A DNA stretch of 64,000 nucleotides, from NCBI GenBank assembly GCA_036874045.1, contig JAZBRI010000004.1, forward strand, positions 868,001 to 932,000, given 5' to 3'. Of this stretch, positions 16,601 to 64,000 are shown piece by piece. The stretch's first letter is position 1, and each line of letters starts with the position of its first letter. The notes beneath the pieces were generated by a model, which made no database searches, was not told where the DNA came from, and saw only the letters and a list, made by a program, of their open reading frames with translations. Source of the stretch: Cymodocea nodosa. Its lineage: Eukaryota; Streptophyta; Magnoliopsida; Alismatales; Cymodoceaceae. A program made the position numbers and the translations under genes.

Positions 16601-16601
16601 T

Positions 16602-33473: not shown

Positions 33474-34610
33474 ATGGAATTGATGCAATTACCGTTGGAT
33501 GCACTAAGGGAAGTACTAAGTAACTTGTCAGCTAAAGATCTGTGCAGGCTGTGTTGTGTATCAAAGGAAATTAAAGACTGTATTGAAGAAAAATATTTTC
33601 AAGGACTACAAGCTGCAAAAATGACTAAGATTAGAGATGGATTCATATGGAGGTCATTTAATCATAGTTCAATTAACCATGAATATCTGGCTATGGAAGC
33701 AACTACTGGAATTCCACCCAATACATTAGAAGGAATAGATCATATTATGTAGATGGATGAAGGATTAATCATATACAGAACCAGACCAAGGTATGCAAGT
33801 CTATTACCTGATATTTTGATAAGAAATCCTATAACAAGAGAAGAATGGAATATAGGAAGACCTAATAGATATGAAGTACCAAATATAAATTGTGGGTCGG
33901 CTTTAATATTTTCTTATAAAAATTGTACCATTCCTGAAAAATTATATTATTGGAGACCTACAGTAAATTGGGATGAAGATTTATGCTTAAGTGTGTATAA
34001 TTTTCTAAATAGATCTTGGACTAAAAATACTATGATATATTTAAGACTGAAATCATTAATTAACAACATGCATATCATACTTGATGGATATGTATATCTA
34101 GTCACAGATATATCAATAGCATTTGGATCTGATTTATACATAGTGAGCATAGGTAGTTATGATGAATATATAGAAATCTTACCTATACCGAGAGAAATAG
34201 CTAAACCACCATCTGCAGAATTTGATAAAATTCAAATAGGAATGTGGTATAATGAATATGATGATCCTACTTTATGTCTGATAAGATGGTGGGATGAATT
34301 GATGAAATTTCAAATATGGATTATGAAAGACATAAATGAATGGAAGTGGGAAGAGGAATATATTGAAATAGATGTAGAAATAGAAACTGCTACATTACCT
34401 TGGAACCAAAAAGGATCCCTTTCTGCATTTCATTTCATTAATCGTAATACACTTGTATTTGGAATTTATAATATATTACAAGTTTACAAATTAATAAGGA
34501 ACAAGAACTGCATTAAAACAGAATTAATAGCAAGAAGAACTATGCCTAAAAAGTTTGCTTGGATTGACACATTTATTCCATTTGTTTCTACTTTTCAATC
34601 ATGTTCTTAA
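33474..34610 (+). pseudogene. F-box protein gene carried by the gypsy element, copy 2 (one in-frame stop)
   Basis: F-box proteins bind SKP1 and bring substrates to the SCF ubiquitin ligase. The N-terminus is a clear F-box: LPLDALREVLSNLSAKDLCR, then LCCVSKEIKDCI. Then come features of a plant F-box-associated domain: IRNPITREEWNIG at about residues 120-132, a predicted beta-rich body with Trp/Tyr-rich stretches, FHFINRNTLVFG near 320, and the end TFIPFVSTFQSC. The frame is 379 codons including the final stop and is open except for TAG at 33750-33752, which divides it into 92 and 285 codons; an ATG follows immediately. Copy 4 (61410) has 380 codons and different stops. It lies between gag and the 3' UTR of the element in both copies. 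Substrate unknown; capture from a host gene is inferred. Confidence 0.82.
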
Positions 34611-41500: not shown

Positions 41501-43209
41501 ACATCATCATTTTTTAAATGAGTTTCTTCCAGATCTCCTTCTATATTTATGCTTTCACTTTCTTTTAAAATTTCAAAATTGATTTGCCTATTTAATTCTT
41601 CTTGAATCACATCATCTAACATATCTCCTTCATCCTCTAAAAAGTCTATGGTATGTAAGGACATTTCTAACTCCTCAAACCTTTCTGGTTTGAAAATATT
41701 TAATTGAGTATCCTCATTACCATATGCTAATTTCATTACTCCAGTCTTACAATTTATAACAGCCCTTGATGTTGCTAAAAATGGCTTTCCCAAAATTAAA
41801 GATGTATCACTATTTTTATGCTTAATTTGTTGGAAATCCAGAATTACAATATCAATAGGATATATAAAATTTTTAATTTTAATTAAGACATCCTCTATTT
41901 TTCCTCTAGGGCATCTTATACTTCTATCAGTTAATTGAATAACCATACTAGTAGGAGTTAAGCCTTCTAATTGTAAGGATGCAAATATATCACTTGGCAT
42001 AACATTTATACCTGCACCTAAGTCTATTAAGGTTCTTTCTAGAATGGTATTTCCTATGGTGCATGATATAATAGGGATTCCAAGATCAGATAATTTTTTA
42101 GAAATTTGTGGCAGAAATAGGGAACTACTTTGCTCAGCTAAAAAGACCTTTCTAAGAACTTTTCGCTCTCTTTTCTTAGTGCACCAATCCTTCAAAAATT
42201 TAGTACAAGGTGGCATTTTCTACAATAGATCTAACAAAGGAATGTTAACTTGTACTTTTTCAAAAATTCCTCTGATTTTTTCTTATTTTTCAGGTATTGT
42301 TTGTTGTAATCTTTCAGGATAGGGTGCTAAAGATTTTGATTTCAAAGATTCTTTTTCTTTCAGTTGATTTGTTTGATCATTTTTAGCTTCATTAGTATAT
42401 TCAGATTGTTCTTCAGTGATTTCTAGATTTTCAGCTATTACATTTTCATTATCATTTTGATTTTTACTCTTATCCACCTTCATATCATTTTCATTTTGAG
42501 TTCTTGGTGGTATATCAATTCCAGATCTTAATGTTACACATACATCTTCCAGATTTTCGTTACTCATGATGTTTTTGTATATCATTTTCGTGATTATGAT
42601 CTTCAATTGTTTTTAATTTTAAAGTGTATTCTTTAAATTCTCTTGCATTAGTATTTTCTGTTTGCTGTATATTTTGCAAATTATGCAAGTTTATAACATT
42701 ATAATTTTCATTGTCCTGTTGCATAACTTGTACTTTCATTATATATTCGTCTAATGCTTTTAATTTTCTTTCCAGATCATCTAATCTCATTACATTCAAT
42801 TTTTGATCAATTTTCATTATGGTTTTTTCAATTTCGTAAATTATATCCTTTTTAGGTTCTGAATATGCTTCCTTATAATTTAATTGGTTGACTTCTTATT
42901 GGTGACACATAAAGTATTCTAGTTTGTCCAGATTTTGCTCTATACTATGCTCTAGTCTGTCATACCTATCCCAAACTTCAGTGTCTCTCAACATATTACA
43001 CATTCTATACTGACCATCAGTTGGGTAAACTATAGGATTCTCATACTTGGCTCTATTATACTGAGGATAATTCATTTGTTGTTCATGGGATCTAACCATC
43101 TGTAAACGTCTCAGTTTCAAAAGTTAGAAATGTCGTGTCCTTCAGAATTGCAGAATTCACATATGCTAATTACAGGTTTCAGAGATCTTTGAGCATAAGC
43201 ATATGCCAT
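38566..43209 (-). pseudogene. pol: NC-PR-RT-RH-IN polyprotein of gypsy element B, nearly full length
   Basis: From ATG 43209 to the stop at 38566 is 4644 bp (1548 codons). Order on the minus strand: zinc-knuckle remnant CEFCNSEGHDISNF (last Cys lost) near 43150; coiled coil; CVTLRSGIDIPP; protease LIDLGAGINVMP at about 42024; RT with VCIDYRKLNAMTRKDHFPL and CFLDGYSGYNQI (about 41000-40860) and F-V-D-D at about 40728; RNase H FELMCDAS near 40310; integrase zinc site [11 protein letters not shown] ... CLRCQQIG; core [10 protein letters not shown] and NDRGTHF; and a C-terminal end with VGPYIV. These motifs and the tRNA-Asp primer site place it with Athila. One frame runs from 42606 to the end with about six stops, several explained by C-to-T change. 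The gag part has a frame change. No capsid region precedes it. Confidence 0.92.
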
Positions 43210-43282: not shown

Positions 43283-43318
43283 CAATTCTATTCAATTCAG
43301 TTCAATTCAATTCAATTC
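43283..43318. repeat. TTCAA pentanucleotide repeat beside the primer site
   Basis: Imperfect repeats of ATTCAATTC lie between the pol start and the primer site of element B. They are absent in elements A and C, so they are a local expansion. Confidence 0.7.
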
Positions 43319-43334
43319 CCCAGCAACGGCACCA
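43317..43334 (-). other. Primer binding site, tRNA-Asp type, element B
   Basis: The minus strand reads TGGTGCCGTTGCTGGGGA, two transitions away from the Athila-type site complementary to the 3' end of tRNA-Asp. It is separated from the LTR end at 43342 by AGTTTTA. Confidence 0.85.
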
Positions 43335-43341
43335 TAAAACT

Positions 43342-45541
43342 TGTTTGTGTTTTCCCAGCACTACACTAGAAAAACTTGGATTTGTTACTTCTGTTTTTAC
43401 TTAGTTAATTTATTTTATGCCTATTCTTTCTTTTAGAAGTAAATAAACAACTTTTAATATAATTTAGATATTAATTCCAATTTGTACTTTAACTGCAAGT
43501 GCATAGTGTCTATTGTATCAGTGTGCAAGTACAGGTCGATCTCACAAGGAATTGCTGAAGAACTTGAGAACTGTTCGTTTGTTAATAATCAAATTTATAT
43601 AATCAATAAACTCCCCGTTGAATTACAGTTAACTCAACGGACAAAGTTCGTTGAGTTATGGCTAACTCAACGGACTAACCTCTTGGACTTAAGTTAACTC
43701 CATGAGCCTGTCTTTTCTTTTTAATATTGCTATTTACAAAGGAATTCGGCCAACCATTAGGCAATTCCATAGATTGTAAATAACATCAATTAAGCTCTTT
43801 AATGTTAGTTAACATTGGATTTATCATTAAGTAATACTAACATTTAGATAATTCAAATAGTAACCATTAAAATCTTTAAGTCTTTTGAACGAACTAATTT
43901 CAGTAAATTGTAAAACTAAAACAACATAAAACAATCACAACATTGACAATGATAGCATTAATCACGATACAACACAAATAATACAACACTCAAATACAAC
44001 ATACAAATATAGATAAATTGTTTTTGGTATTTTTGTTTTAATATGAACATGGAAATGGGTGAAAGGTGAAATGTAAAGTAATCTCACTCGATAGTAAATA
44101 CTTCCGACACTACTTGCAATGCGATTACACCACTGAAAATTAAACCACTTACAATTCTATCTCCTCTCCCTATAGAATTGCGAGTCCAGAATTGCAAGAT
44201 GATCTCCTCTTCAGCATACAGGAATCAACCCGAAGCCAAGGCTAAAAGCTTTATGATCTCCTGAAATATGAGTCAGCGCTTGGTGAAAATGACTTCCCTT
44301 CCCGCGACGTGATCACTCCTCACAGTGGTTGTCAAGCACTGTGTTTGGCTCAAAATCGACCCAACATTAAGAAAGTATTCTCACAGACCTTCGATGGTTG
44401 GTGATTGTGGTGGTGGTAATGATAGTTGGTGTGGTACTTTGGAGAATTGCCGATACTGCCTGCAGAAAGCTCGGTGTTCCTCCTCTGTACACATTGGCCG
44501 TCCATCGATCACACCTTTTTCTTCTTTTTCTTCTTTTCTTTTATATTTCTTTAGTAGTAACTGCTTCTACTTAAATGGTCGGTCGGATTTCCTTCATTCG
44601 TATCAACGACGATGATTTCTTTCCCTACGCGATACGTGCAAACGTGGTTTTTCTCTTCCAACTATCTGTTCCTGCAACCGCTACAGTGGCATATTAGAAA
44701 ATATATAGTCTGTGGAGTTACAGATAACTCAACAGACTTTCTTCGTTGATTTAACTATAAAACACGTGCATAAATTTAACTATTCGATGCTCAGATGCAT
44801 TTCGGATACTTATAAACTTAACTATCCGATGCTCAGATGCATTTCGGATAGTTACAGATAACTCACCGATATATAACTTAAGTAAATCTACCAGATCTAG
44901 ACACGTGTCAGCAGCAGTTTAATCATAAAATAATATTTCGGAGAGTTATAGAGCTAATTATCCGATGTTGAGATGCATTTCGGATAGTTTAGAGATAACT
45001 CACCGAAAATCCACTTAAGCCACTTTCCCAGAACATGACACGTGTCCTCAGCTATTTTATAAATAAAAAGAGATTTCGAAAAGTTACACATATAATTTTC
45101 CGATGCCCAGCTTCAATTTCGGATAATTATAGATAACTCACCGAAAGTTCACTTAAGTCATGAATTATGGTTTCGACACATGTACTTCAGGAAATAATAA
45201 AATATTCTTTCAAAACATATTTGTTCGGCAATTTAAACATAACTATCCGACATGTTTGATCTGTTAAACATAACTGTCTGAAATATGTCCGGTATGTTAA
45301 ACATAACTGTCCGAAATATCAGAAAATTCAGATATTTAAGAATTTCACACCCTACAACTTACCGACAGTTCAAAAATGTACTAAATTAACATTAATTCCC
45401 TAAAATTAAGCAGATTCTTCAATTCAAGCATATAACAGTGCAATTATAACATAATGGCTTAATTCTCATATGATAAGCTAAATATTATGCAATGAACTAT
45501 CATTTAACCGTTAATAATATGCACTTTTACATTCTAAACAC
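43342..45541 (-). repeat. Gypsy LTR Lf, minus orientation, shared by units B and C
   Basis: A full LTR of 2200 bp: minus-strand start TGTTTAGAATG at 45541 and end CACAAACA at 43342. It has G-boxes GACACGTGTC at 44900-44909 and 45037-45046, palindromes AACTATCCGA ... TCGGATAGTT at 44820-44852, and palindrome clusters at 43612-43712 and 44706-44757. It is the 5' LTR of B and is directly joined to the truncated integrase of C at 45542. Confidence 0.9.
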
Positions 45542-48500
45542 TCATCTAGATCTTAATTTTCCTAGATGGTTATAAAGTCTAGTTATGTAAACATATATTT
45601 CTTGTCCTATTTCAAAAGTTTTTGGAATAATTTTCTTATCATGCCAAAACTTCATTTTCTCTTTTTCTTTTATAGTTTTCGAATAAGCTTCATTCCTAAA
45701 TTCTTTTAACTCAATTAATTACATTTTTCTATTTTTAGCAGCTTGATTGAAATTAGTGTTCAGAGTTTTTAATGCCTGATAAGCTTTATGTTTAATTTCA
45801 GCTGATAAATGATAACTTTTTCCATATACTATCTTAAAAGGTGATATACCTAAGCTTGTCTTATAAGCAATTCTATAGGCCCAAAATGCATCTATTAATT
45901 TATTAGTCCAATCTTTCCTAATAGGATTTACTACTTTCTCTAAGATTAACTTAATTTGTTTGTTTACACTTTCTACTTGTCTAGTTGTTTGCAGATGATA
46001 TGATATTGCTATTTTACGATTTACTCTACATTTCTTCATTAAGGCTTCAAAACTTCTATTATAGAAATGAGTTCTTCTGTCACTAATAATAGCTTTAGGT
46101 ATTCCAAATCTAGCAATTATATTAGTTCTTTTAAAATGTATTACTACTTTGTTGTCATTAGTTTTTTCAGGAATAGATTCTATCCATTTAGATTCATAAT
46201 CCACCCCCAATAATATATAATTAAATTGATTAGACATAGTAAATGGACTCATAAAATCTATTCCCCACACATCAAAGATTTCAACCTCAACAATAGGATT
46301 CAAAGGCATCATATTACTCTTTGATATCTTTCCTATTGGTTGACATCTTAAACAACTTAAGTAGTATTTATGAGCATCTTTGAATAGTGTTGGCCAATAG
46401 AATCCACATTACAAAATTTTGGCAGTAGTTTTCCCTGAACCAAAATGTCCTCCACATGCTTGGTCATGGTAGAAAGACAATATACTTTGATATTCAATTT
46501 CTAGAACACCTCCTTAAAACTAGATCAGGATATTTATTAAATAAGTATGGGCTTTCCCAATAGTAATATTTCACTCTTGAAAAGAACAATTTCTTATCCT
46601 GTCTATTCCAATATTTAGGTGTTAAACCTGTAACTAAGTAATTAATTATGTCTACATACCAAGGCATTGTGTTTATAGTCATTAATTGTTTATTAGGAAA
46701 ATTATCCTTAATTTTAATATTTGATTTTTCTATTTGTAATCTTGATAAATGGTCTGCTACTACATTCTCACATCCTTTTTTATCTTTAATTTCTAGATCA
46801 AAATCTTGTAGTAATAATATCCACTAGATCAATCTAGGTTTAGTCTCTTTCTTTGCTATTAGGTGTTTTAAACTTGAATGATCTGTGTGTACTATCACTT
46901 TAACTCTAATCAGATATGATCTAAACTTTTCTAAGGTAAACACAACAGCTAATAATTCTTTTTTAGTGGTTGTATAATTAACTTAAACATCATTTAAAGT
47001 TTTACTTGCATAATGAATCACTCTAGGAGATTTTTCTTTTTGTCCCAACACTGCTCCTAAAGCAAAATTAGATGCATCACACATTAATTCAAATGGATGG
47101 CTCTAATTAGGTGCTTGTATTATAGGAGTTGAAATTAAGCTAGTTTTAAGTTTGAAAAATGCTTCTTTGCAATTCTTATCAAAGTTAAATGGAACATCTT
47201 TTAATAGATTAGTTACATGTCTAGCTATTTTGCTAAAATCTCTAATAAATCTCTTATAAAATCCAACATGTCCTACAAATAATTTAATATCTTTTATTGA
47301 TTTTGGTTCTGATGGATTAGAAATTACTTCTATTTTAGCTTTATATACTTCCAACCCTTTCTTTGAAACATGTCTCAAGACTATTCCTTGATTAACCATG
47401 AAGTGACATTTTTCCCAATTTAGAACCAGATTCTTTTCTACACAACATTTTAATACATAGTCTAAATTGTTTAAACACACTTCATATGAAGTTCCATATA
47501 CTAAAAATCATCTATAAATATTTCTAAAAAATCTTCAATTATTCTAGTGAATATGCCTTGCATAAACCTTTCAAAGGTGGTTGGTGCATTGCATAATCTG
47601 AATAACATCCTCTTAAAAGTATAAGTTTCATTAGGACATGTGAAATTTGTTTTCTCTTAATCCTCTAATGCTACTGAAACTTGATTATATCTTGAATACC
47701 TGTCTAGGAAACAAAAATATTCTTGCCTTACTAATTTCTTTAGCATTTGATCTATAGAAGGTAAGAGAAAATGATCTTTCCTAGTCACAGTATTCAGTTT
47801 TCTATAGTCTATACACACTCTCCAACCTAATTGAATTCTAGTAGGTATTAAGTCCTAACTTTCATTCCTAATAACTGTTAATCCTGATTTCTTGGGAACT
47901 ACATGGATTGGACTAACCCATGAGCTATTAGAAATCGGATAAATTATGTTATTATCTAACCATTTCACTATTTCCTTTCTAACAACTTCTTTAAGGTTTG
48001 GATTTAATTTCCTCTTAGGAATTCTAACTGGTTTAGCATTCTCTTCTAAATATATATGGTGACAGCATAAAGTTTCACTTAACCCTTTTATATCAGCCAT
48101 AATCCATCCTATTGCTTTTTTATAAGTTTTCACTACATCTTTTAATTTAAATATTTGATCTTCTTTTAAATCTGATGCAATAATGATTGGACATGTTCAT
48201 TTTTCTTCTAAAAATATATAAGTTAATTCAGGAGATAATGGTTTTAAATCTAAATGTTGACCATTAGAAGCTAGAACTCCTAATTTAACATTTTCATCTT
48301 CGATATTAAACTCTTCTTGATCTTGTTTTACATCTATGCCTTCGCTTACTTCTAAAGTTTTAAAATCTAATTGCCTATTTAATTCTTATTGAATTACATC
48401 ATCTAGCATATCTCCTTCATCCTCTAGAAAGTCTATAATATGTAATGACATTTCTAACTCCTCTAACTTTTCTAGTTTGAAAATATTTAATTGAGTATCC

Positions 48501-49947
48501 TCATTACCATATGCTAATTTCATTACTTCAGTTTTACAATTTATAACAGCCCCTGATGTTGTTAAAAATGACCTTCCCAAAATTAAATATGTATCATGAT
48601 TCTGATGCTTAATTTGTTGGGAATCCAAAATCACAATATCAATAGATTATATGAAGTTCTTGATTTTAATTAGGACATCTTCTATTTTTCCTTTAGGATA
48701 TCTTATACTTCTATCTACTAATTGAATGATAGTCATAGTAGAGATTAAGCCTTCTAATATTAAGGATGCAAATATTTCACTAGGCATAACATTTATACCT
48801 ACACCTAGGTCTATTAAGGTTCTTTCCAAAATGGTATTTCCTATGATGCATGATATAATAGGGATTCCTGAATTAGATAACTTTTTAGGAATTTGTGGCA
48901 GAAATAGAGAACTACTTTGCTCGGCTAAAAAGACTTTCTAGCATTTTCTGCAATAAGTCTAACAAAGGAATGTTAACTTGTACTTTTTCAAAAATTTCTC
49001 TCATTTTTTCTTATTTTTCAGGAAATTTTTGTTGTAATCTTTTAGGATAGGGTGCTAATGATTGTGACTTACATGGTTCTTTTTCTTTCATTTCATTATT
49101 TTGATCATTTTTAGTCTCATTTTCAGATTTAGATTTTTTTTTCATTGATTTCTAAGTTTTCAGATATTACCTATTCATTGTCATTTCAAATTTTATTCTT
49201 ACTTAGCTCCATTTTGCTTTCTTTTTGAATTCTTAGTGGTATATCAATTCCAGATCTTAATGTTATACACACATATTCTAAATTTTCATTACTTTCATGA
49301 TGTTATTGTATTTCATTTTCTTGAATTTGATTTTCTATTGTTTTCAATTTTAAATTACATTCTTTAAATTCTATTTCATTGGTATTTTCTTTTGTATGTG
49401 GGTTTTGCAAATTATGTAGGTCTTCAACATTAAAGTTTTCATTTGTGTTTTCCTTTTGCATAACTTAAAATTTCATTATTAATTCATCTAGTGCTTTTAA
49501 CTTTCATTCCAGATCATCTAGTCTCATCGCATTCAATTTTTTATCAATTTTCATTATGATTTTTTTTGTTTCATAGATGATATTGATTTTAGGTTTTGAA
49601 TATTCTTCCCTATAATTTAATTAGTTGACTTCTTATTGTTGATATATGTATTGTTCCAATTTGTCCATATTTTGCTCTAAACTATACTCAAGTCTGTCAT
49701 ACCTATCCCAAACTTCATTGTCTCTCAACATATTACTTATTCTAAACGAACCATTAGTTGGGTAAACTATAGGATTCTCATACTCAGTTCTGTTATATTG
49801 AATATAATTCATTTGTTGTTCCTGTGATCTAACTATCTACAATCGTCTCAATTTCAAACAATCAACAATGTCATGACCTTCTAAATTATAAAATTCACAT
49901 ATGCTCACTACAAGTTTCAAGAATCTTTGAGCATAAGCATATGCCAT
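45542..49947 (-). pseudogene. pol: NC-PR-RT-RH-IN polyprotein of gypsy element C, truncated and frameshifted
   Basis: The same order as pol B, starting at ATG 49947. It has a zinc-knuckle remnant CEFYNLEGHDIVDC, protease LIDLGVGINVMP near 48820 (second active-site position changed to Val-Gly), RT VRIPKRKLNPNLKEVV at 48133-47855, a broken RT active site near 47510 (F-I-D-D then stop), RNase H to 47100, integrase WGIDFMSPF near 46265, and [13 protein letters not shown] near 45940. The integrase C-terminal end is cut by LTR Lf at 45541. More stops and shifts than in B indicate an older or faster-decayed copy. Confidence 0.88.
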
Positions 49948-50029
49948 ATTCTCAATTATATGATAAAAACACACAACACTCCCTCTGATATTAAAATAAA
50001 ACAACACTCACAGTTGCTTAGCTTCTCAA

Positions 50030-50047
50030 TCCTCAACAACGATGCTA
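50030..50047 (-). other. Primer binding site, tRNA-Asp type, element C (decayed)
   Basis: The minus strand reads TAGCATCGTTGTTGAGGA. All differences from the Athila-type site are transitions. It lies 7 bases from the LTR end. Confidence 0.68.
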
Positions 50048-50054
50048 GAAAATT

Positions 50055-52252
50055 TGTTTGGGCTGTTTATAGTTAAATTAGAAAGCCTATATTGTTTATT
50101 CAGATTTTGTCTATTGCATATATTAATAAATTCTTTTAAGGCAACAAACAACTTTTTACACAAATTAGATATTAAGCCCAATTTATATTTTTAACTGTAA
50201 GTGCACAGTGTATATTGTATTTATGTGTAGGTCGATCCCATAAAGATTGAGTAAGAATTGTGTACTATTTTAATTTTTATATTAGAGTTTATATGTGTTC
50301 AATTAAGCACTTCATTAAGTTATTGTTAACTCAACGGACTTAGTTTGTGGAGTTACAGCTAACTCAACGTACTAACCTCGTGGACTTAAGTTAACTCCAC
50401 GAGCTTACCTTTCTAGTTAAATGCTACTATTTATAGAGGAATTCGACCATCCATTGGGCGGTCCTATAGAATGTAAATAACATCAATTAAGCTTTTAATA
50501 TTAATTAATCTGAGATTTTTCATTAATCAATACTAACATTTAGATATTTTGAACATTAACCATTAAGATTTTTAGTATTCTTTACGAATCAATTTCAGTA
50601 ATCTATAAAATTGCTTTCTATTTTTTGAATCAACTAAACATAAAACATTCAAATACTGACAATGATAACATTAATCACGATACAAAACAAACAATACAAA
50701 ACATAAATACTAAATGTAAACATAGATAATTAGTTTTTTGGTATTTTTGTTTTGATATATTCTTGAAGATGAACAAAAGTTGCAATGTAAAAATCTCTAT
50801 CGATAGTAAGAACTTCTGTCACTACATGCAACACGATTACACCATTGAAAACTTAATCACTTACAATCTTGCCTCCTCTCCCTATAGAATCGCAAACTAA
50901 GACTTGTAAGTTGATCTCCTCTTTAGTATATTGGCATCAATCTGAAACCAAGACTAGAAGCTTTATGATCTCCTGAGATATGAGTCAGTGCTTGGTGAAA
51001 ATGGCTTCCCTTCCTATGACGTGATTACTCCTCATAATGGTTGTCAGTCACCGTGTTTGGCTCAGAATCAATTCGACATCCGGAAAGTATCCTCACAGAC
51101 CTTCGATGGTTGGGGATTTTGCTGGTATTGTGGAGCTTTAGGGAACTTCCGATGCTTATTGTAGTTAGCGCAATCCTCCACCTTCACACACACTTTACAC
51201 ACATTTCTCCTCTTGTTTTATATTTCTTTTATTAGTAACTACTTCTGCCTAAATGATCGGTTGGATTTCCTTCATTCATATCAACAATGATGATTTCTTC
51301 TTCATTCCACGAGTTAATTCCTACATGATACATGCAATCGCAGTTTTTCCTTCGAATTTCCTATTTCTGCAACTACTATAGTGGCATGTTAGAAAATAAC
51401 TAGTTTATAGAGTTAGTGTAACTCAATGGACTTACTTCGTTGACTTAACTATAAAACACGTGTAGTAAAGGAAACACAATTCATTACCTTAGTGTATATT
51501 CAAGTAACTCAATGTGTATAGTTATGTTAACTTAATAAGTTAAACATGTGCAGCTCACGTGACATAATAAAATATTTAAATTTACAATCTTCTAAGTCAC
51601 TGCTTTAGTCGAACACTTATCCTTTAAGTCCTATAAAAACTCGAACACTTATCTGTAACTCTTCGAGTTCTTGCACCTACAAAGTACGTGACTGAATAAG
51701 AAAACTTATGTGTTCATTAGTCAATTTATAAAACTCAAACAGTTATATATCCAAGCATAAAAACTCGAACAGTTATCTAACTTACCGAAATATAACTTAA
51801 GTTCAGTTTCTAGATCACGACATGTGTCCTTAGTAATTTATACGGTAAAAAGGATATTTCAGATACTTGCAAACCTAACTATTCGATGCTCAAACACATT
51901 TCAGATAGTTATCATCTAACTTACTGAAATTCTACTTAAGTCATGTATTGAGGTAACAACATGTGTTTTTCATGAAATAAAGTATTCTTTAAACGTTCAA
52001 AACATAACTATCTAGTACATGAAATGTGGCTTTCCGAAATAACAGACATTTCAGATACTTAAGAAGTAAAAAGCCTATAACTCACTAACAAATTTAAAAT
52101 ATACTTAATTCATTAAAATTATGCACATTCTTCAATTAAAGCATATAATTATGTAATTATAATATAATGGCTTAATTCTCATATGATAAGCTAAAATTAT
52201 GCAATTAGTCATTATTTAATCATTAATATTATGTACTTTTTCATTTTAAACA
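50055..52252 (-). repeat. Gypsy 5' LTR of element C
   Basis: 2198 bp, minus-strand start TGTTTAAAATG at 52252 and end CCCAAACA at 50055. It carries the tag ACTGTAAGTGCACAGTG at 50195 and a palindrome with arms CTCGTGGA/TCCACGAG at 50377-50403. Around 51600-51790 it has a stretch of ACTCGAACA/GTTATC words not seen in the other copies. Confidence 0.85.
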
Positions 52253-52682: not shown

Positions 52683-53692
52683 ATCTAAAGTGTTGAAAGA
52701 GCTGATATGTGAATTCAAGATTAAATGAAACATATATGATGAAAGATACATTTAATTTGACTGATTGAACTTGTAGAATGATTTATGTGTAGATCTTATT
52801 AAACTACAGAAAAAGTATGAGCTTATTGTTATGGATTCATATTTACAGTAAATGATAGAAGCAAGACTATATGAGATTGGTGTTTTACTGTATCTATATT
52901 AATGAAATACATATATATACAGTATGTGATTAATGTTTTGTTTTGTGTTTGTAGTTTGATTGAAAAAAAAAGGAGAAATTTTGAGAGTTTATTGACTTGT
53001 TTGATCACGAGACTTTTATACTTGAGCAGATAGGTATGTAAGGATTGTTGACTTGAAAAATGACTCTTGAAATCTGGTAACCTAAGATCCTGATCAGATC
53101 TGGGATTGTTGACTGAAAGCTCGTTACATGGGTACATTAGAAAGCTCTTGTATGATTCAAGCTTGTCAAATTAGTTTTTAAAGAAAAAAAAAAAAGAGGA
53201 AAAAAAAAAAAACATATACTATTCTAAAAAGATACAAGTGTTTTGTGAAATACAGATATCTTATGAATCGAGTATATTTTCTATTATCTAGAATTGCTGT
53301 AAAATGAATCTAGAATTGACTTTTGAAGTTGTTTAAGGGAGATACAATTCTTTATTCTACTTGTCTTAATCATATTGAATTGGATTGTACTTTGATTCGT
53401 ATGTTGTTGAAATTTCTTCTAGAAATCTTATTGGAAAATTTAGGATAGTAGATGATGAAAAGAAGAACAAACGATAATATAATTAACACCTATGTGATGA
53501 TGATATACTTTGTATGTAATTTGCATATATTTTAAGTATATTTGCAGGTTGATTACTGAAACATATAGAATATATTTTTATACTAAATAGAAGAAAAACA
53601 AAGGGGAAGAATTAATTTTAGCACTTTTTGAAAGACCAATTAATTAGATCTTAGTTTGCTAAGGGACTAGCAAAATTTAGGTATGGGGGAAG
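52683..53692 (+). other. Gypsy 3' UTR module and polypurine tract
   Basis: Very close to 35360-36357 over its length, ending in GGGGGAAG at 53685-53692 directly before the LTR. The upstream F-box and gag are missing. Confidence 0.8.
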
Positions 53693-55850
53693 TGTTTAGA
53701 ATGAAAAAGTGCATATTATTAACGGTTAAATGATGGTTAATTGTATAATATTTTGCTTATCATATGAGAATTAAGCTATTATCTTATAATTGCACTGTTA
53801 TATGCTTTAATTGAAGAATCTACTTAATTTGGGGGAATTAATGTTAATTTAGTATATTTCTGAACTATCGGTAAGTTGCAGGCTGTGAAATTCTTAAGTA
53901 TCCGAATTTTCTGATATTTCGAACAGTTATGTTTAACATACCAGACATATTTCGAATAGTTATGTTTAACAGACCGAACATGTTAGATAGTTATGTTTAA
54001 ATTGCCAAACAATTATGTTTTGAAAGAATATTTTATTATTTCCTAAATTACACGTGTCGAAATCATAATTCATGACTTAAGTGAACTTTCAATGAGTTAT
54101 CTATAACTATCTGAAATTGCAGTTGGGCATCGGACAGTTATATGTGTAACTTTCCGAAATCTCTTTTTATTTATAAAATAGCTGAGGACATGTGTCATGT
54201 TTTGGGAAAGTGACTTAAGTGGATTTTCGGTGAGTTATCTCTAAACTATCTGAAATGCATCTGAGCATCAAATAGTTAGCTCTATAACTCTTCGAAATGT
54301 TATTTTATGATTAAACTACTTTTGACATGTGTCGAGATCTGGTAGATTTACTTAAGTTATATATCGATGAGTTATCTGTAACTATCCAAAATGCATCTAA
54401 GCATCGGATAGTTAAATTTATGCACGTGTTTTATAGTTAAATCAATGAAGAAAGTCCGTTGAGTTATCTGTAACTCCACGGACTATATATTTTCTAATAT
54501 GCCACTATAGCGGTTGCAGGAATAGACAGTTGGAAGAGAAAAACCACGTTTGCACGTATCGCGTAGGGAAAGAAATCATCGTCGTTAATACGAATGAAGG
54601 AAATCCAACCGACCATTCAAGCAGAAGTAGTTACTACTGAAGAAATATAAAAGAAAAGAAGAAAAAGAAGAAAAGGGTGTGATCGATGAACGACCAGTGT
54701 GTACAGAGGAGGAGCACTGAGCTTTCTGCAAGCAGTATCGGTAATTCTCCAAAGTACCACACCAACTATCGTTACCACCACCACAATCACCAACCATCGG
54801 AAGTCTGTGAGAATACTTTCTTGATGTCGGGTTGATTCTGAGCCAAACACAGTGCCTGACAACCACTGTGAGGAGTGATCGCGTCGCGGGAAGGGAAGCC
54901 ATTTTCACCAAGCGCTGACTCATATTTTAGGAGATCGTAAAGCTTTTAGCTTTGGCTTCGGGTTGATGCCTGTAGGCTGAAGAGGAGATCATCTTGCAAT
55001 TCTGGACTCGCAATTCTATAGGGAGAGGAGATAGAATTGTAAGTGGTTTAATTTTCATTGGTGTAATCGTGTTGCAAGTAGTGTCGGAAGTATTTACTAT
55101 CGAGTGAGATTACTTTACATTTCACCTTTCGCCCATTTCCATGTTCATATTAAAACAAAAATACCAAAAACAATTTATCTATGTTTGTATGTTGTATTTG
55201 AGTGTTGTATTGTTTGTGTTGTATCGTGATTAATGTTATCTTTGTCAATGTTGTGATTGTTTTATGTTGTTTTAGTTTTACAGTTTACTAAAATTGGTTC
55301 GTTCAAAAGACTTAAAGATTTTAATGGTTACTGTTTGAATTATCTGAATGTTAGTATTGCTTAATGATAAATCCAATGTTAACTAACATTAAAGAGCTTA
55401 ATTGATGTTATTTACAATCTGTGGAATTGCCCAATGGTTAGCCGAATTCCTCTGTAAATAGTAGTATTAAAAAGAAAAGACAAGCTCGTGGAGTTAACTT
55501 AAGTCCACAAGGTTAGTCCGTTGAGTTAGCCATAAGTCAATGAACTTTGTCCATTGAGTTAACTGTAATTCAATGGAGAGCTTATTAAATATATAAATTT
55601 GATTATTAACAAACGAACAGTTCTCAAGTTCTTCAGCAATTCCCTATGGGATCGACCTATACTTGCACACTGATACAATAGACATTGTGCACTTGCACTT
55701 AAAGTACAAATTGGAATTAATATCTAAATTGTATTAAAGGTTGTTTGTTTACTTCTAAAAGAAAGAATAGGCATAAAGATAAATTAACTAAGTAAAAATA
55801 GAAGTAACAAATCCAAGTTTTTCTAGTGTAGTGTTGGGAAAACACAAACA
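53693..55850 (+). repeat. Gypsy LTR Lh, plus orientation
   Basis: 2158 bp from TGTTTAGAATG to AACACAAACA. TATA box TATAAAAG at 54646-54653. Palindrome 54453-54484 with arms GTCCGTTGAGTTA and TAACTCCACGGAC about 162 bp upstream of it. A second palindrome cluster at 55483-55575 and the tag ATGGGATCGACCTATACTTG at 55646. It is very similar to Le. No primer site follows; the next base starts a pol remnant. Confidence 0.88.
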
Positions 55851-56037
55851 ATGAGCAGGACCTTACATAGTTCGAAATATTTATTCTTATGGAGTTATAG
55901 AAATTGAAAATCCTAAAAATCAAAATATATTTAAAGTAAATGAACAAAGACTTAGACCTATTCTAAAATTTCCAAAAAGTTCCTTTGGAATTATAGAAGA
56001 ACTAAGAGTAGAGGAATACTCAAGTTTTATTAAGTAA
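55851..56037 (+). pseudogene. pol: Integrase C-terminal end (gypsy pol), fragment
   Basis: A frame corresponding to the last 60 or so codons of pol B (VRNIYPYGAIEIENP-like text; PKSSFGIIEELRVEEY), ending at TAA 56035-56037. It is joined directly to the LTR end, so primer site and almost all of pol were deleted. It shows that ORF3 follows pol on the same strand. Confidence 0.8.
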
Positions 56038-56603
56038 GAATCTGTGTTAAAATATATATAAAAAAATATAATATATATATATATATTATATAAAGTACAA
56101 GTGTTGATTTTATCGAAGCAGTATCTATTCAATCGGAGGAAAAAGAAAGAAATGTGTAATTTTGATTCGATCGAGGAAATGCAATGGCTTTATCGAAGTT
56201 AAGGAAAAAGTAAAATTAAGAGTAAGTCAAATCCAAGATTCTTCGATCTTGACAAAATTAAAAATTATTATTATAATTATTTTTATTAGTTATAACTTTA
56301 CAAGAAGTCTATGGAGTTAAGATTAACTCAATGAACTTACTCTGTTGAGTTAACTGTAACTCAATGGAGTACTTAAGGTAAGTCTATGAACTTAGTTCGT
56401 GGAGTTAACTGTAACTCTATGAAGTAGTACATGTTAGTAGTAATAGATTGCATGAGAAATGACCCAATTACTTGCCAAAAACATAGAATTTATTTAAACA
56501 AAAACTTAAGATTTGGGGGCATTATCCACAAAAATCATTTAGAACTTAGAATAGTAAAGATTAGAGTCATTCCATTCCGTTCAGTTACACAACGAAGACC
56601 GAA
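56038..56603 (+). promoter_or_regulatory. Spacer between pol and ORF3 with palindrome cluster
   Basis: An AT microsatellite lies at 56050-56095. Palindromic words lie at 56296-56425 (CTGTTGAGTTA ... TAACTCAATGG; TTCGTGGAGTTA ... TAACTCTATGAA). The ORF3 ATG is about 180 bp further on. No clear TATA box was found here. Confidence 0.45.
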
Positions 56604-58841
56604 ATGGAGCAAAACTTTTAGGATCAAATTGACACTATAGAATTCCTTAGATAATCAAAGGAATAATATTCAAGGTAGAAGATTAGAAACACCACTAAAG
56701 AGAAGCAACTAGAAAAGGTAGAGGATGACCTCTTCTTCTTTACAAAAGTTTTAGTAGATTTGAATGTCAGAATACCTGCATTAATGGAAACAAGAACACA
56801 AGTGGCAATTGAAACTACCGTAAATAGAGAAAGAAAAATCAGGCCAAACAATGAAGTTACTCTAGAACTCATAAGGCATAAATCTAGACTGTGGTTTATA
56901 AGGGAGATAGTTGCATATGCAAGAATGCAACGCAAAGAGCAACAAAGAAGGGAACAATATGAAATATTGGAAGAACAAGAGTAGCAGTTAGAACCTTCAC
57001 ATCAACAACAATTAAGAGAGCAAGCTAAAGTGTCTATAGTAGTAAAGCAATAGCTAGGACCTTCATACCAACCACAACAAGAAGAAAAAGTTGTAATGGT
57101 AGGTCTAAAATCTAAGGAGGAGGAAAAAGAATTAGAAGAGTTAATTAAGTTTTGTAAAGACCAAGGTGCTGATGAAGCCTTGGCAAGAGTTAAAGCACTA
57201 GTTCTATTTGATGGAATCCAAAGGAGAAGGATTGAAGGAGTACAAGCAAAAATTAAAGTTAGATTACAACAACATCAAGAAGCAGCTACAACTCCAGTTA
57301 CAAGAGAAGAAGCTGAGGTTGGTCCTTCGAGACCAGTAAATATACAAGTAGTAAAATAGGAAGAGTTAGTATATATGGCTTGAGTGCCTAAAGAGCCCAT
57401 TTTTATTGACTTAGTGTTAGAAGAAGAAGAAGAAGAAGAAGAAGATAAAGCACAATTATTTAGAAGAAGAAAAGGAAAAGAAATAGTGTCTAAGGCTCAA
57501 GAGGAAGAAATGAAATCTGAGCTTATAATATTTATAGTAGGGCATAAAGAGCCCATTTTTGTAGATTTATTATCTGAAGAAGAAGAAGAGTAGGAGCAAA
57601 GAGGAGAAGAAAAATGAGTTGATGAAGAGCTGTAACCTGAAAGAACTGAAGTAAGGGTAGAATATGCTATGCCCGAGACTCCATCCCAATCTACCATAGA
57701 ATCAAAAAGAATAGTAACAATGCAGATTGGTAGTGAGGAGGAAGAAGAAAGAAAAGAAGCTGAGCAAGAAGCTGAATAGAAAAAAAAGAATTCGACAAAT
57801 TCCTCTAAAGAGAATGAAACTCTTCGGCAATAGTAGAGAAATTACAAGATAAAATGGAAAGTTCTATAGGCTCTCCACCACATTTCAGAATTGAAAGGCA
57901 AGAATCTTCAGAATATTTTCAACAACACCAACAACAAACTCAGCAAATTGAAGAAGAAATTCAAGAACAAACCCCTCTAGAGCAACAAATCCAAATTCCT
58001 AACTCAATAGAGGCAACTATTCTAAATGAAATTCATTTCTGGAGTTAGGAAGCTTATGATAAATATCAAGAAATAAAGGGGTACAATATAATTTATAGTA
58101 GATTGGATTAGAATAGATGATGTTAAAGAATTATTTGAATTCTAGGGCCTATTGTAATTTATTCCAAAAGCAAAAGGGCATGCAGTTTATGAAAATTTAT
58201 TGTCTAGTTTTTATGCAAACCTAAAGGAGGAAGAAGAAAAATTAATTTCTAACATGGAGGAAGTTAATATTCAGATAATACTTGAGCTTCTCTACTACAT
58301 TTTTAGATTGAAAAATAAAAGAATTGAAATTCTTGAAAATACAACTGCAACTAAATGGACAAAACAAGAAATCAAGTAATGTTTGGTCATCGACCCTAGT
58401 GTGCCACTACTAAACAGATTGAAGTATTTAAATGAGAAGGTACATATGGTGGAAAATATTTTAATTAAAACTGTCTATTAGAGGCATGACCATGACATTG
58501 AATTGAGTCAATTTGTTAAATGGGTCACGTATGTAGTTGTAAATAAAATTCAAGTTAACTAGTGTTAAGTTTTCTTATCAAAGATAAAGTCTGCAAAGAA
58601 GAAACTATTCTTTGGAGACTTGATATCAGAATTAATGGTGGAAGGAATAGATTTCACAAAATGGACATCTAAAAAGATGAGATCAAGAACCATTTCAATG
58701 AAAGAACACAGAAATTATCCTGTTGTTGCTAAGATGACTATAGCTTCAAAAGAATTTACAGGAGCTATAAAATGAATTAATCAACTAGAACAACTAGAAA
58801 AGCTTTAGAAGGAAGTAGATGAACTAAGGAAGAATGATTAA
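56604..58841 (+). pseudogene. ORF3 of the gypsy element (acidic, possible plant transposon protein domain), broken
   Basis: About 745 codons from ATG 56604 to TAA 58839. N-terminal helical part (KEKQLEKVEDDLFFFTK), then VDLNVRIPALMETR and IRPNNEVTLELIRHKSRLWF. The middle is Glu/Gln-rich: the motif KEPIFIDL/KEPIFVDL followed by acidic runs occurs twice (57388-57440 and 57547-57592), around the basic cluster RRRKGKEIV. The C-terminal third has LLSSFYANLKEEEEKLISNM, a Leu-rich region around PSVPLLNRLKYL, and GIDFTKWTSKKMRS. The FYANL and following pattern resembles the 'putative plant transposon protein' domain; this is a recollection of the family. No membrane segment. Many stops (several TGG to TAG/TGA). 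Nuclear action is an inference from the basic cluster. Confidence 0.62.
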
Positions 58842-59284
58842 ATGTATTATTCATCTACTTGTATTGAAAATATCTAATTGCATGTATTGTAAACGATATA
58901 TATTTATTAATGGTTGAACATTAATATGTTTTCTAGATTTGTGTGATTGTGAATGAATGATTTAATTGAGAACTGTATTGAAGATGAATATTATATATCT
59001 ATTTGTTTAAATTTTTGCAGGATTGTTTTAAAAGTTTTACAATTATATGAATGATGTGGATACATGCACGATGAATTAATAATATATATTTGCATATTGA
59101 AAAGTAAAATGTAATTTCTGCATAACAGGAAATGAATTGTAAGTTAAATATGCATATAATGTTTAAATTTAAATGAGTTTAAACTGGAACACTACATTAA
59201 GGAAATGTATTTAACTTTATTTAAGTTGATAAAATGTAGGAAAGAAAATATAGAAGTTAAGATGAGGAGTAAGTTTTTAGGAAA
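58842..59284. other. AT-rich spacer downstream of ORF3
   Basis: No gene. Similar in content to 14066-14514 in element A. Confidence 0.45.
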
Positions 59285-59827
59285 ATTTGCTAAGTGTTAA
59301 CTCAACAAAGTTAGTTCATAGAGTTAACTTTAACTCCATGAAGTCAATAATAAAATATAAGGTCACTTCGTTGAGTTATAAATAACTCAACGAAGTAAGT
59401 TCGTGGAGTTGGCAAACAGTAACTAAGGTAGGTCTGTTGAGTTATCTGTAACTCAACGAAGTTAATCCATGGAGTTAGCTTAACAGTTATTCTTTTCTCC
59501 ACAAATGAGACTTTGTGGGTTTAGCGATTACTGAAATTTAAAAAAATTATAAGTGGAATACATATCCATAAAAATAGGAACCATATCACACGTTACAAGA
59601 CATGTTCTTGCAATCAGATTCATTTGCCATATGTACATGCATTATAAATATAGAACTGAATGTTATTTACTGGTTACCAACAATTAAGAAGAGGAAAGAA
59701 AATTCATTGAAGAATTGGAAGGAGAAGCAACTTATTCAACTTCATCTGTCAATAACTATTTATTAAGAATAAAGCTTTAGACTAGTATGTAATTAATCTT
59801 CTGCATTCTACTTTATGCTAAGAGTTT
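59285..59827 (+). promoter_or_regulatory. Palindrome cluster and internal promoter in front of gag, copy 4
   Basis: The palindrome cluster spans 59296-59490, for example CTTCGTTGAGTTA ... TAACTCAACGAAG at 59367-59397. TATAAATA follows at 59643-59650, about 153 bp after the last palindrome. The gag ATG is at 59828. Blocks around the TATA box are shared with copies 1 and A. Confidence 0.62.
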
Positions 59828-61176
59828 ATGAGCACATGGACTCGTTCTCCTAATACTAAACGATTAGTAAGAACACCTACATAGGATTATTCAACACAGA
59901 AGCATACTGAAATATTTTCTGGATTAGACTTTAACAAAATCCTTAGGGGTGTAGCTAACCTTTCTTTAAAGGAGAATGAAGATATAGCTACTCTAGTAGA
60001 AAAACCATTAGGGGAAATTCTATATCCTGAATTAGTTGATGAACCTTCATGTATTCAATTGCCAAACTTTGAGGGAGATAGGTTTGAATTGAAATCTAAT
60101 TATATTAGTCAATTGCCACACTTTCATGGATTAGAAAGAGAATATGCCTATTATTTCCTTAGAGAATTTAATGAAGTTTGTCAAATGATGAAAATGTTGA
60201 ACATAAGTATTGATGCTATTAAACTTAGATATATTCCTTTTGCTTTAAAGACACAGCTAAGAGATAGTTATATACTCTATCGCTTGATTTAATTTCTACA
60301 TGGACTGAATTTTGCTTTGTTTTTCTAGAAAAATATTATCCAACACATCAAAAAATTAAAAAGAAAAAGGAAATATTAATGTGTAGCCAAAAATAGGGAG
60401 AATCATTCTGGAAATATTTTGAACGATTTAAAGATTTACTAACTCAATGTACACATCATGCAATGAGTAAAGCATAATTAATAGGTATAATTTATAAAGG
60501 CATAGATGTTTCAACTAAATCTTTATTAGAATCTACTTGTCAGAATAAATTTTTAAAACTGTGTAGTGAATAAGCATGGACATACTTAGAAAACTTTGCA
60601 AAAAGAACTACTTAATGAGAAAATTCGATTGAAGCTATTACAGATAAAAGAATATTGCTAAGGAAAATGCATGAAATAGATTCAAGCACTATGCTTGAAG
60701 TTAAATTAACTGAGTTAAGAAAGAAAATAGAGGAGTTATCATTAAATCAAAAATTAGTAGAAAAGAATGCAAATATTAATGACTTAGATATTATTTATGC
60801 TAGAAACCAGAAAGATAACTTTGGAAATTCTTATAACCCTAATTGAAGAAATCACCCAAATATATCTTGGAGAAATAATAATTTCTAAGGAGGAGAAAAT
60901 ATAAATGACAAAAATATAAGTTATGAAGCATTAATTGAACAAGGATTTAGAATAGAGAAATTAGAAAAGATAATTCAATAATTAAACAATCGTCTAGATC
61001 ATGTATTTGGAAATGTTGTCATTCAAAATCAAAATATGAATAGAAATATACCCCTTAGATAGAAGGAATCAATAAAAGTTAGACCTACTAGAGGACTGCC
61101 AATGCAAGCAATGTTTAATCCTATCAATAGAACTATTAATGAAATTGATACCTCCTATGGGAGGGAAGTTGAATGA
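59828..61176 (+). pseudogene. gag: Gag of the gypsy element, copy 4 (broken)
   Basis: The fullest Gag copy. Start ATGAGCACATGG; the core IKLRYIPFALK and the region STWTEFC then FLEKYYPTHQK; HGESF-equivalent, ERFKDLLTQC and HHAMSKA; then LTELRKKIEELSLNQKLVEK; NSYNPN at 60824-60841; coiled coil IEKLEKI; end TSYGREVE at 61176. The capsid core has the layout of Athila-type Gag, but the zinc knuckle that should precede the YNPNW motif is absent; a zinc knuckle instead begins the pol frame of A, B and C. A lost A near 60249 shifts the frame, and several stops are present. It is preceded by ORF3 and its own promoter, not by an LTR or primer site. Confidence 0.85.
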
Positions 61177-61409
61177 GGTAGCACAATTATTAGCAACTAT
61201 GTATAATATAGCAAATATATGGTAAGTAGAAAAAAAAAAGAAAAAAAAGAATGAAAATTTAATTATAGTTAGTAGTACAGTAGAGTTATTATTTAACTCA
61301 ACAAACTTAGTCCGTTGAGTTATGACCTAACTCCATGGAAGGATATGTAAGTAGCTATGGTAATTTTATCTCTACTAAATTTTGTTTATGTTATACAGAA
61401 TCACAACAA
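61177..61409 (+). promoter_or_regulatory. Palindrome pair and 3' splice site in front of the F-box gene, copy 4
   Basis: Palindromic words at 61273-61338 (AGAGTTA ... TTAACTCAACAAA; GTCCGTTGAGTTA ... TAACTCCATGG). GTAAGT at 61347-61352 resembles a donor. TACTAAAT at 61373-61380, a U-rich run and CAG at 61396-61398 make a good branch point and acceptor. The ATG is at 61410. The local donor-acceptor distance, 52 bp, is short for a plant intron, so a more distant donor is more likely. Confidence 0.5.
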
Positions 61410-62549
61410 ATGGAATCGATGAAATTACCGCTAGATGCACTGAGAGAAGTATTGAGTAATTTATCAGCTAAAGATTTGTGCAAATTGTGTTATGTGTCAA
61501 GAGAAATTAAAGAATGTGTTAGAGAAAAATATTTTCATGGACTACAAGCTGCAAAGATGATTAATATTAGAGATGAATTTTTATGAAAGTCATTTAATTG
61601 TAGTTCAATCAGCTATAAATATCTAAATATGGAAGAAACTACTGAAATTCCACCCAATACATTAGAAGGAATAGATCATATTATGGGGATAGATGAATGA
61701 TTGATTATTTACAGAACCAAACCAAGGTATGTTATTCTATTACCTGATATTTTCATTAGAAATCCTATTTCTAAAGAAGAATGGAATATAGGAAGGCCTA
61801 ATAGATTTGAAATATCAACTGAAAATTGTGGGTTAGCTTTAAAATTTTCTGATAAAAATTCGATCATTCCTGAAAAATTGTATTACTAGAGACCAATAGG
61901 AAATTGGAATGAGGATCTATGTTTAAGTGTATATAATTTTCTAAATAAATCTTGGAATGAAAATATTGTGATATATCTAAGAGAGAAAGCATTAGTTAAT
62001 AATATACATATCATACTTGATGGATATATATATCTAGTCACGGATATATCAGTTGCATTTAGATCTAATTTATACATAGTAAGCATAGATAGTTATGATA
62101 ATGACTTTATAAAAGTATTGTCTATACCTAATGATATAGCTAAACCACCATCTACAGAACATGATAAAATTCAATTAAGAGTGTGGTATAATGAATATGA
62201 TGATCCTACACTGTATTTAGTAAGATGGTAGGATGAATTGATGAAATTTCAATTATGGATTATGAAAGATCTAAATGAATGAAAGTAGGAAGAGGAATAT
62301 ATTGAAATATATGTAGAAATAGAAACAACTACATTATATTGGAACAGAAAAGGATCACTTTTTGCATTTCAATTCATTAATGGTAATACACTTGTATTTA
62401 GTATTGATAACATACTATAAGTTTACAAGTTAACAAGGAAAGCAAACTGCATTAAAATAGAATTAATAGCAAGAAGAATTATGCCTAAAGGTTTTGCTTA
62501 GACTAACACGTTTATTCCATTTGTTATTACTTTTCAGTCATGTTCGTAA
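61410..62549 (+). pseudogene. F-box protein gene carried by the gypsy element, copy 4 (several stops, no frameshift)
   Basis: The same protein as at 33474: F-box LPLDALREVLSNLSAKDLCK then LCYVSREIKECV, associated-domain motif IRNPISKEEWNIG, and the same end CS before TAA at 62547. From ATG to stop is exactly 380 codons in one frame, with no frameshift. In-frame stops include 61584 (TGA), 61698 (TGA), 61887 (TAG), 62229 (TAG), others near 62279-62288 and 62416, and one at the Trp near 62500. At most of these sites copy 2 has Trp or Gln, so each is explained by one G-to-A or C-to-T change. Gag lies 233 bp upstream and the element 3' UTR downstream, as in copy 2. The upstream ATG at 61335 in the same frame would add 25 residues not seen in copy 2. 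Confidence 0.82.
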
Positions 62550-64000
62550 AATGTGATTTTATAATTTTAATGTTGTGTGTATTTTACATTTATTTTTTTT
62601 TTAAAAACTTTTAGTTTTTGTTTTATTTATCTTACAAGAAAGAAAAGGAAAAACAAAATATCAATCTAGTTTGTTGGTATCTATTCTGAGAAACTAACTA
62701 GCTTGCTTGTGAGCCACTAAAGACATAGGAGCTTGGGTTCTACACAAGACACTGATTTAGCAATTTATGTTTTGTTGTTAGTTGTTATTTTATTATATAG
62801 TTTGCTTTTATTTGTGAATGAAAAGTTTTTCAAAATCAAAAGTTGGAAAATATTGAAGGAGATACAAAAAAATAAGGTATGTAATTGATTACTTATCCTG
62901 AATTTACATTCAAACACAGTTCGTGGAATTATTCATTAACTTAACAAACTTAATTCGTTAATTCATTGAGTTAGGTGCTAAGTCAACAAAACAATATTCA
63001 TGCTTGCTAACATTTACTATATTTACTGTAAAATCTTTTACATTGAGGACAATGCAAAATGTTGGTATGAGGGAGAGGTAATTAGATTAAAATCTATGTA
63101 ATCTTGTTAATTAGAGGAATTGGGATTGTGTTGTAAATTTTTGTGGAGATTGAAAATTTTTTATGAATTTTGCTGTAACTTATCTGAAATCTTCTAATAG
63201 CTGAAATTGTTAACATTTTTGAGAATTGTAACTGTTTGAATGTTATATTTAAAATCTTATATAAGATGCTATGAAATTTTAATATTAATACAAATCTAGA
63301 TATGGTATCTTATGTTCTTATTGAATTTTATGAGTTTAACAGTTTCATGATTTTAAGAAATCCGAATGCTTAACTAAAACTCAAGAAATGATCTGAAATC
63401 TTGATAGAGTTGAAATGTTGATTTTTGGATTAAATGAGATATATATGATCAAGGATATATTTAATTTAATTGATTAAACTTGTAGAATGATTTACATGTA
63501 AATCTTATTAAACTACAAGAAAAGTATGAGCTTATTGATATGGATTCATGTTTTCAGTAAATTATAGAAGCAAGATTATATGAAATTTGTGTTTTATTGC
63601 ATCTGTATTAATGAAATACATATATATACTATGTAGAAAAGAAAAAAAGAGGTAAAAAAGAGAAAAACTTTGAGAATTTATTGATTTGTTTGATCACGAA
63701 CCTTTTCTTCTTAAGTAGATAGGTATGTAAAGATTGTTGACCTAAAAAATGACTCTTTAAATCTGACAACCTAAGATTCTAATCAGATCTAGGATTGTTG
63801 ACTGAAAGCTAGATGCATGGGTACACTAGAAAGCTCTTGTATGATTCAAACTTTTCAAATTAACTTTTAAAGTAAAAATATATATATACTGTTTTGAAAA
63901 GATGAAAGTGTTTTGTAAAGATACAAATATCTTTTTAATCGAGTATATTCTCTGTTATCTATGATTACTAAAGTATGAATCTAAAATTAAACTTTTGAAG
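62550..64000 (+). other. 3' UTR of the gypsy element, copy 4, running off the window
   Basis: It aligns with 34611-35990 (GTATCTATTCTGAGAAACTAAC, ACACAAGACACTGA, TTTTACATTGAGGACAATGC). It holds one extra AACTCAAC-type palindrome region at 62920-62990. The polypurine tract and LTR expected next lie beyond the window. Confidence 0.7.

Follow-up and report, generated by a model that had tools for sequence, protein, structure and literature searches.

The stretch of DNA analysed here, referred to as the window, comprises 64,000 nucleotides of Cymodocea nodosa (contig JAZBRI010000004.1 of assembly GCA_036874045.1; G000:C4:868001-932000) and is filled, as seen by self-comparison, with nested copies of one long terminal repeat (LTR) family. 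On its plus strand, at 55851-62549, the end of an integrase (IN) is followed by the open reading frame (ORF) ORF3, by gag, the gene of the shell protein, and by an F-box gene. As the first-pass annotation of this DNA had stated, they succeed one another without an LTR or a primer site: a pattern search found no LTR start and no primer site between the integrase end and the F-box gene, and only short hairpin stretches within the segment resemble part of the LTR. Using the whole genome (374.6 Mb in 28 contigs), we confirmed that gag after pol is the real layout of this family, and our data support it as a working one.

ORF3 (56679..58775, end approximate) is broken, and its pieces in the window gave no PF20167 match. 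Among copies elsewhere, four of five ORF3 frames weakly resemble PF20167, with best E-values of 1.7e-6 and 6.2e-6; none reaches the curated cut-off, and PF03078 was absent from the ORF3 frames in the Pfam search. The gag gene (59828..61225, ATG at 59828, end approximate) extends from the capsid to a coiled coil and is likewise broken; its piece at 60268-60393 matches PF03732 below the cut-off (E 5.5e-4), and the 135-aa piece at 59885-60289 by itself gave no Pfam match. Gag copy 1 of the window (534..1812, plus strand) matches PF03732 at 939-1079 (E 1.6e-5) and 1083-1211 (E 4.2e-5). The Retrotrans_gag domain was found in a 454-aa frame of locus L026 (E 2.3e-21) and in L014 (E 1.8e-17). The L026 frame, the sole gag frame tested, contains no CCHC motif, in agreement with the earlier claim that the capsid protein lacks a zinc knuckle. 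For the C-part of Gag, no relatives were found among 91 candidates.

The F-box gene (61410..62549, ATG at 61410) is also broken, with PF00646 on 61326-61583 (E 1.1e-9). A second copy, in two open pieces, lies at 33465..34607 on the plus strand (PF00646, E 3.6e-11). These matches identify an F-box domain, for which binding to SKP1 is predicted. The tail of the protein had no relatives among 244 candidates, a single-sequence model of it was unusable (predicted local distance difference test score 36), and a search of the PDB with the F-box piece gave no match. In L025 (731-2761), gag and F-box form one 677-aa open frame in which part of both has been lost at the join.

The segment belongs to an element, C, whose integrase end was interrupted by the insertion of an element B. 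ATGAG is found to the left of the B 5' LTR (45541-45545) and to the right of its 3' LTR (55851..55855, plus strand). The pol frame of C, from protease (PR) to integrase (45541..48940, minus strand), stops at 45541, and the integrase end resumes at 55851 on the plus strand (55855..56034), followed by ORF3, gag and F-box. Since the duplication adjoins the B 3' LTR and pol of C continues across it, 55851 is an insertion edge inside C and not the start of an element. The left half of C (45541-52252, minus strand) and the right half are now oppositely oriented, which indicates a later inversion.

The pol of B (38725..43209, minus strand) begins with the zinc knuckle, ends with the integrase and includes no capsid, and the Pfam search of the window pieces identified RVT_1 (PF00078, E 6.1e-15), H2C2 (PF17921, E 2.5e-13) and rve (PF00665, E 1.5e-8). 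A 967-aa pol frame in L017 carries RVT_1, RNaseH, H2C2 and rve in succession, so that reverse transcriptase (RT) and RNase H (RH) precede the integrase, as in Ty3/gypsy elements. In the protein database, the top PR-RT matches mostly share ~50% identity, and those that are named come from plants. We provisionally call the family Athila-like in view of its pol similarity, the weak likeness of ORF3 to PF20167 and motifs known from that lineage. Its pol frame begins with MAYAYAQR...CEFC..EGHDISDC, and 12 such starts are present in the window and the loci L001-L032; the CCHC motif is complete in five and incomplete in seven, including all three in the window. Regarding elements A, B and C, it had been proposed that pol begins with a zinc knuckle after the primer site. 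The start position held (ATG at 20157, 43209 and 49947), but the knuckle has decayed in all three, and the primer site is clean only in B.

Evidence for gag after pol within one element comes from a complete copy of 16.5 kb, C13:10058111-10074622, which is embedded in a copia reading frame and flanked on both sides by AGAGT. Its order is LTR, primer site, zinc knuckle/PR-RT-RH-IN, ORF3, gag, F-box, polypurine tract and LTR. Two LTRs, a primer site, a polypurine tract and 5-bp duplications (AGAGT here, ATGAG for B) identify the family as LTR retrotransposons. The LTRs of this copy are 93.15% identical (70 mismatches over ~1797 aligned bases). At a substitution rate of 1.3e-8 per site per year, we calculate an insertion age of ~1.5 million years for this element and ~2.6 million years for B. 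The earlier proposal that gag is encoded downstream of pol is thus borne out in an LTR-bounded, target-duplicated element, which supports the view that the capsid needs separate expression.

The gag search scored 150 matches of 81-100% identity among 4993 first-look candidates, not all of which are confirmed copies. We mapped the matches ranked 2-11 with ~10 kb on either side (pairs 1-10) and two further loci, C11 and C13, picked for the proximity of pol and gag; the 6-kb loci L025-L027, which begin only 0.5-1 kb before gag, were left out of the order counts. In six of the ten gag-picked loci (pairs 1, 2, 5, 6, 9 and 10), gag lies behind pol/integrase and ORF3 with no LTR between, the gag in question being the second of the stretch and not the searched one in pairs 2 and 9. 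The same holds, without an intervening LTR after pol, for both spacing-picked loci, so that gag follows IN in 8/12 loci instead of opening the order GAG-PROT-RT-RH-INT. No pol was found upstream of gag in pair 3, and pair 4 has an ORF3 frame but no pol. In pairs 7 and 8 an inserted 3' LTR, preceded by the 3' non-coding region W, stops ~0.8 and 0.25 kb short of gag, within the pre-gag spacer belonging to another copy. We looked both for intact relatives with gag upstream of the knuckle and for gag-F-box units that had inserted separately, and encountered neither in the examined loci.

Two arrangements could be mistaken for the ordinary order. The gag of C11 at -4057 bp from pol was rejected as such, a complete LTR and primer site lying between them. 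Pair 7 was considered as LTR, primer site and gag; its primer-like motif is inside a longer LTR, which ends in another copy's pre-gag spacer. In L011 (1164-1266) and L013 (9120-9200), a subfamily LTR carries within its 3' end a second motif resembling a primer site. Moreover, L005/L006 (pair 3) and L029 (547-4949) show a gag(-F-box)-LTR-pol tandem, as if neighbours share or abut one LTR.

The 5' LTR match ends 425-492 bp before the first pol block that was matched ('pre') in all nine loci in which both are visible (pairs 1, 3, 5, 6, 7, 9, 10, C11 and C13). The zinc-knuckle frame already starts inside this gap, and this part is missing from one additional copy in pair 9. There is therefore no room for a capsid before pol, and in the mapped loci none precedes the knuckle, as had been claimed.

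Spacing across the genome was analysed with 89 pol matches (of 8730 candidates) and 300 gag matches, two gags being counted in both listings. Fifteen pol/gag pairs lie within 25 kb, eight on the same strand and seven, at scattered distances, on opposite strands. The same-strand distances from pol to gag are 7739, 7796, 7916, 7953, 5470, 15059, -4057 and -13537 bp; four of the 89 pol matches thus have a gag 7.74-7.95 kb downstream, where ~0.01 is expected per 300-bp bin. Gag and F-box matches occur within 20 kb of one another in 12 pairs, and eight of these share both a strand and a spacing of +1122 to +1133 bp, where 0.003 is expected per 100-bp bin. Three pol-to-F-box pairs were found, none at the expected 9 kb, which we attribute to the small samples.

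We computed pairwise ratios of nonsynonymous to synonymous substitutions (dN/dS) frame by frame, comparing each own frame with the others. The own-frame value is 0.27 for gagN (other forward frames 0.51 and 0.72, reverse 0.41-0.77), 0.40 for gagC (0.47 and 0.55), 0.34 for F-box (0.56 and 0.65), 0.34 for PR-RT (0.43 and 0.72), 0.34 for IN (0.62 and 0.58) and 0.31 for the ORF3-gag stretch (forward 0.68 and 0.72, reverse 0.47-0.90). In the LTR and W, dN/dS is 0.55-0.77 across all six frames. A protein-guided count gave 0.19-0.43 for the 'pre', pol, gag, ORF3 and F-box blocks. Stops are present in many copies. The lowered own-frame values indicate that gag, ORF3 and F-box evolved as proteins, like pol.

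Upstream of gag we found a TATA box, TTATAAATATAG (59642..59653, plus strand), common to 16/16 copies examined, namely those with 800 bp of upstream sequence. It reads TATAAATA in 13 of them and TATATATA in three. The gag ATG follows ~185 bp after it in the window and at ~180 bp in copies generally, and is kept in 15/16 rows. The next best separate site in the pre-gag stretch is shared by 5/16 copies, the best common TATA before F-box by 8/18 and that before ORF3 by 5/12; the LTR's own TATA box is present in 22/26. A donor-like GTAWGT precedes gag in 14/16 copies, and a T-rich stretch before F-box ends in AG in 13/18 rows and in AA in the other five. In the window, the possible splice acceptor, ...TTATACAG at 61397..61398 (plus strand), lies just before the F-box ATG. 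Together these signals would permit splicing of the gag transcript into an F-box RNA.

Hairpins with a 12-bp stem form a family with 86 members in the window, compared with 1-5 in five mononucleotide shuffles, often at a period of 33-34 bp. In element C they lie beside the LTR promoter and at four junctions (integrase/ORF3, ORF3/gag, gag/F-box and F-box/W); three are at 56308..56423, three upstream of gag at 59315..59460 and two at 61277..61339, all on the plus strand. Further examples in the window are at 43614-43706, beside the LTR TATA box, and at 62920-62990. Among 299 distinct arm pairs, 200 paired arm changes were counted, compared with a mean of 105 and a maximum of 133 in 500 shuffles; the dyad symmetry has therefore been kept. 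The hairpins may act as RNA or as a DNA site.

Overall, we assign a probability of roughly 0.6 to a high-copy Athila-like Ty3/gypsy family with gag after pol, an internal promoter for gag and an F-box gene that is perhaps expressed by splicing. A full-length RNA from the LTR promoter would give a pol polyprotein starting with the nucleocapsid-like knuckle, in which case RNA binding would travel with the enzymes. Gag would be translated from a second RNA initiated at the internal TATA box. The same promoter could supply the F-box protein, perhaps after splicing from the donor before the gag ATG to the acceptor before the F-box ATG, and this protein may direct the host SCF (SKP1-cullin-F-box) ligase at a silencing or restriction factor. 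More tentatively, at somewhat less than even odds, we propose a multi-cistron retroelement with an internal promoter, from a successful LTR retrotransposon lineage in which Gag would be permanently separated from Pol: the knuckle would be fused to the enzymes and expressed first, the capsid would come from its own promoter together with an F-box counter-defence, and hairpin modules would mark the junctions.

Several observations weigh against this interpretation. The agreement of the TATA box does not amount to 16 independent events, since the 16 copies are related. Beyond the hairpins, comparison of the promoter side of the LTR with the pre-gag leader revealed no resemblance (median score 19, and 19 for shuffled sequence). 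Just 83 of 349 hairpin sites in the window and L001-L028 lie at the first three gene junctions, with 18 in other inter-coding intervals and 248 elsewhere (LTR interiors, other repeats). The gene copies in the window are broken. In the protein-guided count, the block before the protease (ZKup) has a dN/dS of 0.60, no lower than non-coding sequence, whose baseline is itself below 1; the contrast between frames is small for gagC and for PR-RT (0.34 and 0.43), and some reverse frames are low as well (0.41 for gagN, 0.47 for the ORF3-gag stretch). The role given to the F-box protein is a guess.

Gag might alternatively be made from a spliced, LTR-initiated RNA, like retroviral env, with the layout unchanged and the TATA box incidental. 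Splicing would serve ORF3 and F-box too, and the acceptor-like stretches before F-box fit it; the signal common to the pre-gag region is a TATA box with upstream hairpins, as seen also at the LTR promoter, and a by-eye look at the profile revealed no common donor near the pol start. We regard this as unlikely, although it is the best of the alternatives. It is less probable still that the downstream gag is a passenger and that particles are built from the Gag of another element of ordinary order. A diverged gag family without a pol match within ~5 kb downstream does exist (L027, 276-1430), but the own-frame dN/dS of gag and F-box (0.27-0.40) and the retained gag ATG speak against a passenger. 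That nesting, tandem elements or assembly errors merely simulate the order is barely credible: the window is heavily nested, with an inversion, and LTRs lie close to gag in pairs 7, 8 and C11, but those of pairs 7 and 8 run directly into another copy's pre-gag spacer, the upstream gag of C11 is parted from pol by a complete LTR and primer site, and the target-duplicated elements, above all C13:10058111-10074622, and the recurrent spacings contradict an origin by chimera or nesting. We also considered whether an old primer site or a remnant LTR survives before gag, as expected from a dimer; comparison of the leader with the LTR gave no support.

The remaining features of the window belong to the same family. 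Its LTRs begin with TGTTTA(A/G)AATG and finish with CACAAACA (in one copy CACAAATA). The 5' LTR of C (50057..52252, minus strand, start exact, end approximate) has AGAAG in front, and the pol start of C is at 49937..49952 on the same strand. No 3' LTR of C was detected in the 5 kb that adjoin the window, and the target duplication of C was sought without success. In B, the 5' LTR (43342..45540, minus strand), with TATATAAAT adjoining the hairpins at 43614-43706, is followed by the clean primer site TGGTGCCGTTGCTGGGGA (43317..43334, minus strand), presumably of the type of the Athila/Calypso/Diaspora lineage; the site has decayed in A and C. The B 3' LTR (53693..55850, plus strand) is 91.6% identical to the 5' copy and preceded by a polypurine tract at 53682..53692. 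The tract, TATGGGGGAAG, precedes two 3' LTR copies in the window; a 3' LTR of a further copy, with a polypurine tract in front, lies at 36358..38522 on the plus strand. W, the non-coding region before the polypurine tract, starts at 62979 and runs past the window edge (62979..64000, plus strand). Element A (13218..20157, minus strand) contains pol, ORF3 and a gag truncated by an LTR at 13217. The segment 38523-52682, between two direct W-LTR copies, is inverted with respect to both C halves, and its left edge is an exact LTR end.

The family shares with Athila, Calypso and Diaspora the PR-RT-RH-IN order and a Retrotrans_gag capsid, and its ORF3 may correspond to their extra ORF after pol. It differs in the position of gag after pol and ORF3, in the knuckle, which is parted from the capsid and joined to the N-terminus of pol, and in the F-box gene and the pre-gag TATA box. 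In foamy viruses, Pol and Gag likewise come from separate RNAs and an internal promoter is used, but gag is first, Pol is made from a spliced RNA and the internal promoter serves accessory genes. Ogre and Bianca elements also have their domains split over two ORFs with a gap, but the first ORF is GAG or GAG-PROT and the mean gaps are 274 bp (Ogre) and 172 bp (Bianca), according to a 2019 survey (PMC6317226). Polerovirus P0 silencing suppressors (PMC8614689) offer another case of a parasitic genome with an F-box protein.

The 2019 survey covers 8453 Ty3/gypsy elements with the order GAG-PROT-RT-RH-INT, GAG not being reliably found in 159 (PMC6317226), and in Diaspora gag follows the LTR (873 bp), Athila relatives carrying an env-like ORF after pol (PMC1142308). 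The suggestion that gag after pol is ancestral found no support: since the relatives described in print have GAG first, a derived order is more likely. The survey cannot settle the matter, because every element with an unexpected domain order was discarded as a likely wrong prediction (PMC6317226). A search of open-access papers, judged mostly by their titles and the starts of their abstracts, found no description of a gag-after-pol layout or of an element with gag plus F-box.

The presence of gag after pol, together with an F-box gene, suggests that the gene for the shell protein has its own promoter. Gag before Pol is regarded as a rule for LTR retroelements, on which the excess of Gag and the co-assembly of Gag and Gag-Pol depend. 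An abundant family that breaks this rule implies that the order is not required. It also opens a new way to test the problem of the Gag:Pol ratio. Such elements would be lost in standard annotation, as the 2019 survey illustrates with its removal of unexpected orders (PMC6317226).

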